Assembly: GCF_006861655.1 (NCBI RefSeq)
Contig: NZ_SESI01000001.1
Span: 322,328 to 386,327 of the forward strand
DNA: 64,000 bases
DNA from: Halonotius roseus
Lineage (GTDB): Archaea > Halobacteriota > Halobacteria > Halobacteriales > Haloferacaceae
Reading direction: 5' to 3'
Part shown: positions 22,034 to 63,695 of the stretch, piece after piece
How positions within the stretch are numbered: position 1 is the stretch's first letter
Layout of the letters: each line of letters starts with the position of its first letter
The notes under the pieces: generated by a model
What the model was told of the DNA's origin: nothing
Databases searched by the model: none
The model's input: the letters and a program-made list of their open reading frames with translations, nothing else
Translations under genes and position numbers: made by a program

Positions 22034-22043
22034 GCTTTATTAC
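22034..22043 (+). promoter_or_regulatory. TATA element ahead of leuA
   Basis: GCTTTATTAC is 25-30 bases before ATG 22069, so transcription should begin at about 22063-22067, almost exactly at that ATG. This makes ATG 22069 the expected first codon of the message. Confidence 0.6.
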
Positions 22044-22068
22044 TCGGGTAGCCACTTAGTGCAGGTAC

Positions 22069-22140
22069 ATGTCTCACCACGACACGGAGGACACGTCGGA
22101 TTCCCCGGCGGATCGAGTTCTTCGAGGGCACATTGACTAA
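22069..22140 (+). other. 23-codon reading frame overlapping the leuA start
   Basis: ATG 22069 opens MSHHDTEDTSDSPADRVLRG and stops at TAA 22138-22140, overlapping the leuA TTG at 22133 by eight bases in another frame. Either it is a short upstream ORF coupled to leuA, or it is the true leuA N-terminus separated by a one-base frame change: the leuA frame upstream of 22133 is open back to 22052 and reads RRIEFFEGT just before TTG, but holds no ATG or GTG. Confidence 0.5.
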
Positions 22141-23299
22141 CACTGACGAAATAGAGTCAGTACGAATTTTCGACACGACGCTGCGTGATGGCGAACAGTC
22201 ACCACGCACATCGTTTGATTACAACGACAAACGCGCCATCGCCGAGCTGCTGGACGAGATGGGCACCCACGTCATCGAGGCCGGGTTCCCCGTCAACTCC
22301 GACCCCGAGTTCGAGGCTGTCTCGGACATCGCGGCGGCGACCGATGCGACGACCTGCGGGCTCGCCCGCGTCGTCGAGAAGGATGTCCAAGCGGCGATCG
22401 ACGCTGGCGTCGACATGGTGCACGTCTTCGTTTCGACGAGCGACGTGCAGCTCCAAGACTCGATGCACGCGAGCCGCGAGGAGGCGGTCAACCGCGCGGT
22501 CAAAAGCGTCGAGCAGGTTCGCGATGCGGGCCTGGAGGTCATGTTCTCGCCGATGGATGCGACCCGTACCAACGAGTCGTTCCTCGTCGAGGTCGTCGAG
22601 GCGGTCAGCGAGGCCGGCGTCGACTGGATCAACATCCCCGACACCTGTGGCGTCGCAACCCCAACCCGGTTTGCGAAGCTCATCAGGCTCGTCGGCGAAC
22701 ACACCGACGCCCGGATCGACGTCCACACCCACGACGACTTCGGGCTGGCAACCGCCAACGCGATGTCGGGCTTCGAGGCCGGCGCGCACCAGGCGCAGGT
22801 CTCGGTCAACGGCATCGGCGAACGCGCGGGCAACGCGGCCTTCGAGGAGGTCGTCATGTCCGCCGAGAGCCTGTACAACGTTGACACCGGCATCGACACG
22901 ACTCGGATCACCGAGCTGGCGAAGCTCGTCGAGGAGAAGTCGACGATCCCGATCCCGGTCAACAAGGCGGTCGTCGGCGACAACGCCTTCGCCCACGAGA
23001 GCGGCATCCACGCCGCGGGCGTCATGGAGAACACCGACACCTTCGAACCCGGCGTGATGACCCCCGAGATGGTCGGCGCGTCCCGGGAGTTCGTCCTCGG
23101 CAAACACACCGGCACCCACTCGGTTCGGAAACGCTTGGAGGAACTCAACTACGAGCCCAGTGACTCCGAGGTGCGGGCGGTCACCAAACTCGTCAAAGAG
23201 TTCGGCGCCGAGAAGGAGCAGATCACCGACAGCGTGATCGCACGCTTCGCCGAGGAGGTCGGTGTCGCCGAAGCCGACTCCGAGGAGGTACGGGTCTAA
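22133..23299 (+). CDS. leuA: 2-isopropylmalate synthase / citramalate synthase family
   Basis: Condenses acetyl-CoA with 2-oxoisovalerate (leucine) or pyruvate (isoleucine via citramalate). HMGL-like TIM barrel with RIFDTTLRDGEQSP, the metal and substrate motifs HTHDDFGLATAN and VNGIGERAGNAA, and GIHAAGV. At about 388 residues it lacks the LeuA C-terminal allosteric domain, so leucine feedback is doubtful. Only TTG 22133 (after GAGGG) is available as a start in frame; see the frame question above. First gene of the branched-chain amino acid cluster; LeuA is the likelier role because leuC, leuD and leuB follow. Confidence 0.88.
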   Translation: MTNTDEIESVRIFDTTLRDGEQSPRTSFDYNDKRAIAELLDEMGTHVIEAGFPVNSDPEFEAVSDIAAATDATTCGLARVVEKDVQAAIDAGVDMVHVFVSTSDVQLQDSMHASREEAVNRAVKSVEQVRDAGLEVMFSPMDATRTNESFLVEVVEAVSEAGVDWINIPDTCGVATPTRFAKLIRLVGEHTDARIDVHTHDDFGLATANAMSGFEAGAHQAQVSVNGIGERAGNAAFEEVVMSAESLYNVDTGIDTTRITELAKLVEEKSTIPIPVNKAVVGDNAFAHESGIHAAGVMENTDTFEPGVMTPEMVGASREFVLGKHTGTHSVRKRLEELNYEPSDSEVRAVTKLVKEFGAEKEQITDSVIARFAEEVGVAEADSEEVRV

Positions 23300-23443
23300 T
23301 GCCCGCCCCCTGCTCGTTTGCACCCGGTGAGCGACAGCCCCAGCCAGCCGTCAGGGCGGCGAAGGCAGGGTCGTCGATAGCACGCGGAGGGTCGTCGGAA
23401 ACGCGTAACTATTATTATGAACCGTGTCATTTCTCTGGGTACG
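23300..23443 (+). promoter_or_regulatory. Start of the leuA-ilvB spacer with TATA-like TATTATTAT
   Basis: This part of the 358-base spacer has no supported gene. AACTATTATTATG (23407-23419) can act as a TATA element; a transcript would begin near 23438-23442, just before ATG 23444. Confidence 0.45.
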
Positions 23444-23521
23444 ATGCCACAGCAACGATCTCTCGGCACGGCGGTCGACCGAGTCAGTGCTGTCGGCGTA
23501 CGCGGTATTGTAGGGGTCTAA
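23444..23521 (+). other. Candidate Val-rich leader peptide of ilvB
   Basis: A 25-codon frame, MPQQRSLGTAVDRV then SAVGVRGIVGV, in which nine residues are Val, Ile or Leu, concentrated at the end. The frame can be opened further up (ATG 23417, 34 codons). Its stop codon starts inside the loop of a hairpin, GGGGT-CTA-ACCCC (23513-23525), followed by T5 at 23534-23538. The arrangement resembles a branched-chain amino acid attenuator, but the same T-rich sequence can also be read as a TATA element. Confidence 0.4.
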
Positions 23522-23541
23522 CCCCGACTCCACTTTTTATC
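23513..23541 (+). promoter_or_regulatory. Hairpin plus T-run / TATA upstream of ilvB
   Basis: A 5-bp perfect stem with a three-base loop (23513-23525), then GACTCCAC and TTTTTATC. As RNA it could stop transcription; as DNA, CTTTTTATC is a TATA element predicting a start at about 23565 and a 92-base ilvB leader. Confidence 0.45.
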
Positions 23542-23608
23542 CACACATCCGGCGTTCGATCCACACCCTCAGCAGGTGTCGAACCGAGATTCACCCGACA
23601 GCAAACCA

Positions 23609-23661
23609 TGCATTCACGACCGACAACACGCGACCGACCGACCACAAGAGGACGACAATGA
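23609..23661 (+). other. 17-codon frame overlapping the ilvB start
   Basis: ATG 23609 opens MHSRPTTRDRPTTRGRQ and ends at the TGA inside the ilvB ATGA (23658-23661). Placed in the predicted ilvB leader, it could couple ribosomes onto ilvB. It may also be chance; a Shine-Dalgarno-like AGAGGA before ilvB would allow direct initiation. Confidence 0.3.
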
Positions 23662-25448
23662 GCGAAACAGCCAAATCACCACCCGATGCCGAGGAGGAAT
23701 CGACAGCCGAGGAAACGACCGCGGACGACGCGGCCAGCGAGGCCGACGACGGCGCGACACCCGTCACCGACGGCTCGACGGCTATCGTTCGCGCACTCGA
23801 AAACGGCGGCGTCGAACACGCCTTCGGCGTCCAAGGCGGGGCGATCATGCCCGTCTACGACGCGCTGTGGGACTCCGATATCGAACACATCACGATGGCC
23901 CACGAGCAGGGCGCGGCCCACGCGGCTGACGCCTACGGCGTCGTCGCCAACGAACCCGGCATCGCCCTCGCAACGTCGGGGCCGGGCGCGACTAACCTCG
24001 TCACCGGCATCGCCGACGCCAACATGGACTCCGACGCCATGCTCGCACTCACGGGCCAAGTCCCCAGCGACATGGTCGGCTCCGACGCCTTCCAGGAGAC
24101 CGACACCACCGGGGTCACGATGCCGATCACGAAACACAACTGGTTCGCCTCCTCGGCCGACACCATCGGCGACACCGTCGGCGAAGCCTTCGCCCTCTCT
24201 GAATCCGGTCGCCCCGGCCCGACGCTGGTCGATCTCCCGAAGGACGTGAGCTTCGAGGAGACCGACAACCAGCCCGGCGAGCCCGAACTCCCGGCCGGCC
24301 AAGAGCCACCCACGACAGCCGATGAGGAAGATATCGACGCGGCCGCCCGCGCCATCGAGCGCGCGGAAAAACCGCTCCTTCTGCTCGGCGGCGGCGTCAT
24401 CAAGGCCGAAGCCAGCGACACCGCCCGCGAGTTCGCCCGCGAACACGGTATCCCCGTCGTGACGACGATGCCCGGCATCGGCAGCTACCCCGAGGACGAC
24501 GAACTCTGTCTCTCGTGGGCCGGCATGCACGGCACCGGCTACGCCAACATGGCGATCACCCACACCGACTGCCTGATCGGCGTCGGCACCCGCTTCGACG
24601 ACCGACTGACCGGCGGCATCGACACCTTTGCTCCTGAAGCTGAGGTCGTCCACATCGACATCGACCCCGCCGAGATCAGCAAGAACATCCACGCCGACTA
24701 CCCCTGTATCGGCGACGCGGGGACGGTGCTCGACCAGCTGACGGAAGAAATGGATCGAGAGCCCGACGCCCGCGAGTGGCGCGAGCAGTGTGCGACGTGG
24801 AAAGAGGAGTACCCGATGGATTACTCGGTCGACAAGGACGCGCCGCTGCGACCGGAGTTCATCGTCGAGGCCTTCGACGAGGCGACCGACGACAACACCA
24901 TCGTCACCAGCGGCGTCGGCCAACACCAGATGTGGGCCTCCCAGTACTGGGAGTTCACCGAGCCGCGCACGTGGGTCTCCTCCCACGGGCTCGGCACGAT
25001 GGGGTACGGCCTGCCGGCGACGATCGGCGCGCGCTTCGCCGCTGACGACGACCAAGACGTGGTCTGTTTCGACGGCGATGGCTCCTTTTTGATGACGATC
25101 CAGGAGCTATCGGTCGCCGTCCGCGAGAACCTCGATATCACGGTCGCCGTCCTCAACAACGAGTACGTTGGGATGGTTCGACAGTGGCAGGACGCCTTCT
25201 TCGAGGGTCGCCACATGGCCTCGGAGTACAACTGGATGCCGGAGTTCGACAAGCTCGCCGAAGCCTTCGGCGCGAAAGGATGGCGCGTCAACGACTACGA
25301 CGAGGTCGCCGACACCGTCGAAGCCGCTCTCGACTACGACGGCCCGTCGGTCATCGACTTCCACATCGACCCCGACGCCAACGTCTATCCGATGGTCGCA
25401 AGCGGCGCGCCCAATGGAAAGTTCGCGCTCTCGGAGGATCAGCTATGA
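23658..25448 (+). CDS. ilvB: Acetolactate synthase, large (catalytic) subunit
   Basis: First shared step of Val, Leu and Ile synthesis; joins two 2-oxo acids with thiamine diphosphate and FAD. After an acidic extension of about 38 residues come HAFGVQGGAIMPVYDAL, the catalytic Glu in MAHEQGAAHAADAYG, GPGATNLVTGIADA, and the ThDP motif DGDGSFLMTIQELS through NNEYVGMVRQWQ. Length 596 residues, normal. The stop overlaps the ilvN start by four bases (ATGA). Confidence 0.97.
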   Translation: MSETAKSPPDAEEESTAEETTADDAASEADDGATPVTDGSTAIVRALENGGVEHAFGVQGGAIMPVYDALWDSDIEHITMAHEQGAAHAADAYGVVANEPGIALATSGPGATNLVTGIADANMDSDAMLALTGQVPSDMVGSDAFQETDTTGVTMPITKHNWFASSADTIGDTVGEAFALSESGRPGPTLVDLPKDVSFEETDNQPGEPELPAGQEPPTTADEEDIDAAARAIERAEKPLLLLGGGVIKAEASDTAREFAREHGIPVVTTMPGIGSYPEDDELCLSWAGMHGTGYANMAITHTDCLIGVGTRFDDRLTGGIDTFAPEAEVVHIDIDPAEISKNIHADYPCIGDAGTVLDQLTEEMDREPDAREWREQCATWKEEYPMDYSVDKDAPLRPEFIVEAFDEATDDNTIVTSGVGQHQMWASQYWEFTEPRTWVSSHGLGTMGYGLPATIGARFAADDDQDVVCFDGDGSFLMTIQELSVAVRENLDITVAVLNNEYVGMVRQWQDAFFEGRHMASEYNWMPEFDKLAEAFGAKGWRVNDYDEVADTVEAALDYDGPSVIDFHIDPDANVYPMVASGAPNGKFALSEDQL

Positions 25449-63330: not shown

Positions 63331-63695
63331 CCGACTTCCTCGGGGTGGTGACGACGCGACACGCCTACGCGCTGTTCGTCCTGCTGTCTGCCATCGGGCT
63401 CTACATGATGATCGCGAACAAAAACCTCGTCAAGAAGATTATCGGGCTGAACATGTTCCAAACCGGCGTCTTCCTGTTTTTCGTCACCTCGGCCTACCGG
63501 ATCGGCGGCGCGGCCCCGATCATCACCGAGGGGGCTGGCCCCTACGTCAGCCCGCTGCCGCAGGTGATCGTGCTGACGGCGATTGTCGTCGGCATCAGCC
63601 TTACGGCAGTCGGCCTCGCGCTCACCATCCGGCTGTACAGCGAGTACGGCACGCTGCGTGCCGACGCGCTCCGGGAGGTGATCGGCGATGAGTGA
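63327..63695 (+). CDS. mnhC: Na+/H+ antiporter subunit C
   Basis: 122 residues, three spans, related to NuoK. Segments include AYALFVLLSAIGLYMMIANK, KKIIGLNMFQTGVFLFFV and VSPLPQVIVLTAIVVGISLT, the last being the NuoK/MrpC signature. Overlaps mnhB and mnhD. Confidence 0.95.
   Translation: MTDFLGVVTTRHAYALFVLLSAIGLYMMIANKNLVKKIIGLNMFQTGVFLFFVTSAYRIGGAAPIITEGAGPYVSPLPQVIVLTAIVVGISLTAVGLALTIRLYSEYGTLRADALREVIGDE

Follow-up and report, generated by a model that had tools for sequence, protein, structure and literature searches.

The window analysed here, a stretch of 64,000 nucleotides from Halonotius roseus, contains leuA followed by a spacer (23300–23657) and then by ilvB, an intervening frame, ilvC, leuC and leuD. 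The first gene 3' of the leader that occupies this spacer is ilvB (23658–25448, plus strand, as are all the leader features below), which encodes the large subunit of acetolactate synthase and whose product scores 683 bits against TIGR00118 (cut-off 538). Within the spacer, a TATA-like box, ATTATTAT (23411–23418), is centred 29 nt 5' of the ATG of a 25-codon leader peptide frame, hereafter called uORF1 (23444–23521; MPQQRSLGTAVDRVSAVGVRGIVGV). The frame runs from the ATG at 23444 to a TAA at 23519–23521 and closes with ATT-GTA-GGG-GTC-TAA, so that the peptide ends I-V-G-V. The candidate control codons ATT-GTA (Ile-Val; 23507–23512) are the last two before a hairpin, GGGGT-CTA-ACCCC (23513–23525), with arms at 23513–23517 and 23521–23525, a CTA loop and a predicted energy of −6.2 kcal/mol. 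This hairpin encloses the uORF1 stop codon, whose first two bases lie in the loop and whose last A pairs with T23517. A pyrimidine tract (23526–23541) follows, and its T5 run (23534–23538), which starts eight bases past the hairpin, is a candidate transcript end.

The sequence-only reading had described the leader frame, hairpin, T5 run and TATA-like element, and all four are present where it placed them. It also called the frame rich in Ile, Leu and Val, which is correct, although the count is eight rather than nine of 25 residues. The element extends beyond position 23541, where that reading ended it, to a second frame that closes on the ilvB start codon. This frame, uORF2 (23608–23661; MHSRPTTRDRPTTRGRQ), has a TGA that overlaps the ilvB ATG at 23658. 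Just 5' of the uORF2 start lies CCGACAGCA (23595–23603), the 3' partner of a clade-level pairing with TGCTGTCGG (23488–23496) inside uORF1.

From the window alone, this feature does not rise above chance. A terminator scan of positions 23000–24000 gave one terminator-like site against 0.9 expected, the whole leader folded no better than its shuffles (z −0.55), and the leader matched none of the Rfam covariance models, T-box and riboswitches included, at E ≤ 5. A second GTAGGGG..CCCC in the window (63530–63545, minus strand) lies antisense inside a coding frame, and we judged it a chance occurrence. It is the comparative data that make the case.

The leader is conserved across the order. An IlvB scan yielded 80 loci, 51 of them haloarchaeal (L031–L081); bacterial ilvB loci (L082–L110) were unused, and L056, which is cut, and L080, which is masked, are omitted from some counts. 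The motif (ATT/ATC/GTA)-GTA-GGGG-N-CCCC lies 5' of ilvB in 50 of the 51 haloarchaeal loci, the exception being L056 with only 105 nt of upstream sequence, and L003 has the element too. It terminates a short frame ending I-V-G-A/V, with or without extra residues. The sequence-only reading had singled out a longer cluster, SAVGVRGIVGV; the part of it encoded at ATT-GTA-GGGG..CCCC is conserved, and the stretch as a whole is not.

A covariance model derived from the leaders of 50 haloarchaeal ilvB loci (R1; its E-values are rough) matches 374 of the order's 392 genomes at E ≤ 0.01 and, by an eye count, 363 at E ≤ 1e-4. Weak matches (E 0.004–0.01) also occur away from ilvB in the window's own genome, so we place little weight on the 11 genomes, again counted by eye, whose best E exceeds 1e-4. 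When 196 genomes were drawn from the phylum, all 28 genomes that matched at E ≤ 1e-4 fell within the order. An IlvB motif is found downstream, inside the stretch retrieved, in 29 of the best 30 matches, the exception (L146) being on a short contig. Ten of the 18 genomes without a match have no true ilvB (the best relative is at most 35% identical over most of its length, or there is none). The others include one cut by its contig (G322), three with divergent versions of the leader (G052, G066, G153) and four in which ilvB is present without the element (G013, G043, G045, G058); G071, counted as a weak match, likewise has an ilvB with no element upstream. All these counts come from related genomes and hence are not independent. 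One complete-looking leader (L157; G065:C2:397906-397970), with LIVGV, a stop in the hairpin and a second short frame, lies in a fetched stretch that contains no ilvB. A different leader in that genome does come with ilvB (L160), and L157 may be a leftover or an element that acts by itself.

Several features indicate that uORF1 is a coding frame. Within 150 nt 5' of GTAGGGG, 77 of 92 ATGs fall in the uORF1 frame, and Ile, Leu and Val make up 51% of its last nine codons (220/432) compared with 13% of the remainder (103/774). The absence of in-frame stops is uninformative, because another frame is equally open. An in-frame ATG lies 25–31 nt from the centre of an AT-rich octamer in 34 of 36 scorable loci, where scoring required at least seven A/T in eight and 15 of the 51 loci had no such octamer. 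The TATA-like element that had been noted upstream of the frame is one instance of a box that recurs 25–31 nt before uORF1. From this spacing, the uORF1 transcript is probably leaderless, as are 72% of protein-coding transcripts in Haloferax (PMC4983044). The TATA spacing, the ATG bias and the conserved frame together predict a translatable short frame between the promoter and the first gene.

The recurring box also bears on a competing proposal, that TTTTTATC just serves ilvB as its TATA box and that the preceding frame arose by chance. The stretch is indeed T-rich and lies 5' of ilvB. It is not TATA-like in other Halonotius loci, where CTTTTCACTC and CTTTTCACCC take its place, no start codon lies 25–30 nt downstream of it, and the TATA box that does recur is the one before uORF1. 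Since the frame and hairpin are moreover found across the order, we regard this proposal as almost certainly wrong.

The codons at the end of uORF1 are highly constrained. GTA stands just before the hairpin in all 51 leaders, the window included; GTA belonged to the search pattern, yet every locus with enough upstream sequence fitted that pattern. The codon preceding it is ATT in 39 leaders, ATC in 11 and GTA in one, giving Ile-Val in 50 of 51 and Val-Val in the other. Both codons are rare in the genes themselves: across 50 ilvB genes, GTA accounts for 16 of 2292 Val codons (0.7%) and ATT for 114 of 1212 Ile codons.

The hairpin that follows is conserved and covaries. As the sequence-only reading observed for the window, the frame stops inside it, and this holds in 49 of 51 sequences; in L050 and L070 the stop lies just 3' of the hairpin. 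Around the loop, the closing pair is C-G in 36 leaders, U-A in 12, U-G in two and a mismatch in one (n = 51). Its 5' base is the second of the Ala or Val codon, and its 3' base falls at the stop codon or immediately after it. This position explains why Ala mostly occurs with TAG and Val mostly with TAA: among 50 leaders, Ala occurs with TAG in 29, with TAA in four and with TGA in three, and Val with TAA in 13 and with TAG in one. On the IlvB tree the pair type changes eight times, and there are just four independent contrasts; on average 3.6 go in the same direction and none in the opposite one (p 0.125), so the phylogenetic test agrees with covariation and is underpowered. Divergent stems, with pairs read by eye, appear re-paired as GGTGC/GCGCC (L184), GGCG/CGCC (L185) and GGGCC/GGCCC (L177, L180).

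Related leaders upstream of valS, the valyl-tRNA synthetase gene, carry a different set of codons. The extra R1 matches in other families of the order sit 5' of valS, which we recognised by its translated start and, for one set of genomes, by TIGR00422. We gathered 18 valS leaders with GTAGGGG, eight from R1 matches and ten from 20 further valS upstream regions, in which ten had the element (L248 with a weak 3' arm) and ten did not. These leaders end F-V-G-A, V-V-G-A, R-V-G-A or F-V-G-E-I, mostly with another Val codon within three codons. GTA is preceded by TTC in nine, by another GTA in five, by CGT in three and by TTT in one, and never by an Ile codon (0/18). Codons cognate to the downstream pathway thus stand at the decision point at ilvB and valS alike, and the change from Ile-Val to Val without Ile fits the product of the downstream gene. 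It is the strongest single argument for a ribosome reading these codons as a sensor, and judged on sequence it would be hard to explain without one.

The valS leader is patchily distributed. The element is absent from 30 other valS loci (L207–L236), where the one TAGGGG..CCCC match (L230) has no GTA codon, and the ten negatives among the 20 further regions include valS of the window's own genome (L237) and of five others of its family. Haloarchaeal ValRS scores form two groups, at about 840–910 and 690–770 bits, and ilvB-type leaders were seen only with the second.

The valS leaders also help to weigh two accounts in which the codons do not sense tRNA. If GGGG..CCCC were a DNA operator or the site of an RNA-binding regulator, with the frame incidental, a palindrome would covary just as a hairpin does, and it would be understandable that GTAGGGG is kept more strictly than coding alone requires. 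The spacing between the arms, however, is 5, 6, 7, 8 or 9 bases, unlike that of a dimer operator, and the ATG frame bias and the Ile-to-Val change at valS require translation; we consider such a site very unlikely. The second account is nascent-peptide arrest of the TnaC type, in which a free amino acid would make the ribosome stall at the I-V-G-A/V end. Arrest peptides of this type keep a constant sequence a set distance away from where the ribosome stalls. Conservation of the peptide end at ilvB is as arrest would predict, but the stop codon lies 9, 12, 18 or 24 bases past the start of GTA and the residue before V-G becomes F, R or V at valS. With neither a fixed stop distance nor constant residues, arrest is highly improbable.

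A separate leader with Trp codons, an independent parallel to the one at ilvB, precedes trpS. At stand-alone trpS genes, 11 of 13 loci (L320–L331, L333) have a Trp-codon leader peptide, the two without being L320 and L327; the motif is W-R-W in ten (TGGNNNTGG) and W-S-W-P-W in one. The Trp codons sit between the arms of a covarying hairpin, with stems GTCCGCTCCC/GGGAGCGGAC, TCGCTCTCCG/CGGAGAGCGG, GCTGTCCGCTGG/CCAGCGGACAGT and ATCCGCTTCCCA/TGGGAAGCGGAT (the stem picked by script in L324 differs), and a GCTCACTCGCTTTCTC-like tract lies 3' of it. For a Haloferax tryptophan-tRNA ligase, Babski et al. (PMC4983044) list a long 5'UTR that contains a uORF of 23 aa. By that account a transcript of this kind exists in Haloferax, and their frame may be the one seen here. 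No comparable leader was found at ileS (30 loci, inspected by eye and with a list of perfect G/C stems) or at pheS (30 loci, searched for short frames with at least three Phe), and no Trp leader was found at 30 trpD loci (L350–L379). The trpD genes, including that of the window's genome (L365), have repeated TGTACA motifs and a TATA just upstream, an arrangement that looks like operator control.

We asked what the hairpin and the tract behind it may do. The sequence-only reading took hairpin and T5 for a terminator. That description suits the Halonotius group; elsewhere the hairpin is followed by a T-enriched pyrimidine tract, and T5 is not conserved as a run, occurring within the set only in the window and L031. 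The frequency of T peaks at 0.48–0.50 about 12–14 bases past the CCCC arm and is about 0.1–0.15 further on. In Haloferax in vivo, termination reached 95% at a T5C sequence and 59% at a tested hairpin, and hairpins lie at most 10 nt upstream of 503 mapped ends (PMC7237163). These data make a terminator of hairpin plus tract plausible.

Taken together, the conserved coding frame, the stop in the hairpin, the codon choice, the covarying closing pair and the cognate switch at valS suggest that the ilvB leader acts in cis, sensing charged tRNA-Ile and tRNA-Val through its leader peptide frame and so setting expression of the ilvB operon, a reading we hold to be likely. The attenuator-like interpretation first proposed for the window is thereby supported, since leader peptide, cognate codons, stop-holding hairpin and promoter are all conserved across the order. 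As to mechanism, ribosome-mediated attenuation without an antiterminator appears most likely, with a ribosome stalled on the Ile or Val codons masking the hairpin.

In this mechanism, transcription would begin at or a few bases from the uORF1 ATG, as the TATA spacing suggests, and the first ribosome would load onto the leaderless 5' end and translate to AUU-GUA, the last codons ahead of the hairpin. With ample Ile-tRNA and Val-tRNA, it would reach the stop codon inside the hairpin and depart, the hairpin would fold, and RNA polymerase would tend to stop at the pyrimidine tract. With either tRNA scarce, the ribosome would stall on AUU or GUA, where its front would cover the G4 arm and block the hairpin, and transcription would proceed into uORF2 and ilvB. 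The architecture suggests that uORF2 would then pass ribosomes to the ilvB start through the stop-start overlap. Because the ribosome itself would be the antiterminator, an alternative hairpin would be unnecessary. A mutually exclusive hairpin, sought through pairing between uORF1 and downstream sequence, was not found order-wide.

The second frame allows a translational version of this scheme, in which the uORF1 ribosome would gate uORF2 and ilvB through the hairpin or through uORF1-uORF2 pairing and transcription would not be ended. Of 50 loci, 42 have a frame of at least nine codons that closes on the ilvB start; 50 of the 63 ATGs in the spacers lie in that frame, and the T run is poorly conserved. 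The pairing between uORF1 and the uORF2 start is moreover re-paired in Halonotius, Halohasta and Natronocalculus loci. Over all 50 loci, however, the longest such pairing averages 6.82, compared with 6.63 (sd 0.12) in a swapped-partner control whose largest value in 40 shuffles was 6.98. We therefore dropped the order-wide pairing and retain it as a clade-level possibility only. Eight of the 50 loci have no such uORF2, and of the 18 valS leaders about 11 carry a second frame that closes on the valS start codon and several have none. We consider the translational version unlikely, though less so than the other alternatives discussed here. The uORF2 peptides are rich in Arg, Thr and Pro, with Ile, Leu and Val together below 3%, and share recurring YR and RRP motifs at ilvB and valS alike, features that are unexpected in an acidic proteome.

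In bacteria, the control of amino-acid genes by leader peptides is textbook knowledge. In the enterobacterial attenuators (trp, ilvGMEDA), codons cognate to the operon product precede a terminator-like hairpin that has a mutually exclusive antiterminator. The ilvB leader shares the cognate codons before a hairpin, whereas in haloarchaea masking of the hairpin would fall directly to the stalled ribosome. As there is no order-wide antiterminator, we do not class it as a classical attenuator, although it would work alike minus that part.

Closer parallels come from actinobacteria. There, short frames with Ile, Val and Leu codons overlap candidate terminator hairpins ahead of ilvB, and this group also has leaders at trpS and leuS (Seliverstov et al. 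2005, PMC1262725). Those leaders are bacterial and have poly-U after the hairpin, and the likeness seen is one of architecture. The haloarchaeal leader differs in that an invariant GTA precedes a minimal hairpin containing the stop, in being probably leaderless and in having a second frame coupled to ilvB. In Streptomyces coelicolor, whose ilvB is the closest bacterial analogue, altering candidate regulatory codons had no effect (PMC1262725), a result that cautions against taking control codons at face value. Attenuation upstream of ilvB is also described for Corynebacterium glutamicum ilvBNC, with a three-hairpin model (PMC11857589); comparable alternative hairpins were not found in the haloarchaeal leader.

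Among archaea, the nearest precedent is the set of uORFs that Babski et al. (2016, PMC4983044) reported in long 5'UTRs of Haloferax volcanii; these short frames are transcribed from starts of their own, and one of them lies at trpS. In the accessible text of that paper they are classed as small proteins, ilvB is not among the 16 rows of the table and the word "attenuation" does not appear. Full-text searches of the open-licence literature, on leader-peptide attenuation in haloarchaea or archaea and on Haloferax uORFs, turned up no paper whose title or abstract reports such a system; an older or subscription paper may exist.

A separate observation, which is not part of the evidence for ilvB, concerns the start of leuA (22037–22175 in the window; L031–L081), where we saw no convincing in-frame start. 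A frame M-S-..-S-P-A-G/D-R-V-L-P/R-G-H..stop begins at a leaderless ATG (position 22069 of the window). In all 49 visible loci it is offset by one base from the LeuA frame (..R-V/I-E-F-F-Q/E-G-T-L..), which it overlaps. By an eye count, about 40 of these 49 have no ATG, GTG or TTG in the LeuA frame between the leaderless ATG and the catalytic motif. This layout makes leuA a candidate for programmed +1 frameshifting near a conserved CGA-GTT-CTT-C (Val-Leu, GTT CTT C), and such a site would possibly sense leucine. A literature search combining frameshifting, leuA and haloarchaea found no paper.

These leaders raise the tentative idea, to which we give somewhat less than even credence, that haloarchaea sense aminoacyl-tRNAs generally through leaderless leader frames, reading Ile-Val at ilvB, Val at valS and Trp at trpS, each with a hairpin, and that leuA of the same operon is produced solely through a +1 frameshift near the Val-Leu site, which possibly senses leucine. 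If so, archaea would have their own equivalent of the attenuators and T-boxes of bacteria. Leader-peptide coupling of translation to expression would then also operate, across nearly a whole order, in archaea, with their leaderless mRNAs and an RNA polymerase like that of eukaryotes. The leaders would provide a testable case of archaeal transcription-translation coupling, with ilvB, valS and trpS as a candidate regulon, and may give meaning to short frames that transcriptome studies have recorded with no function assigned.
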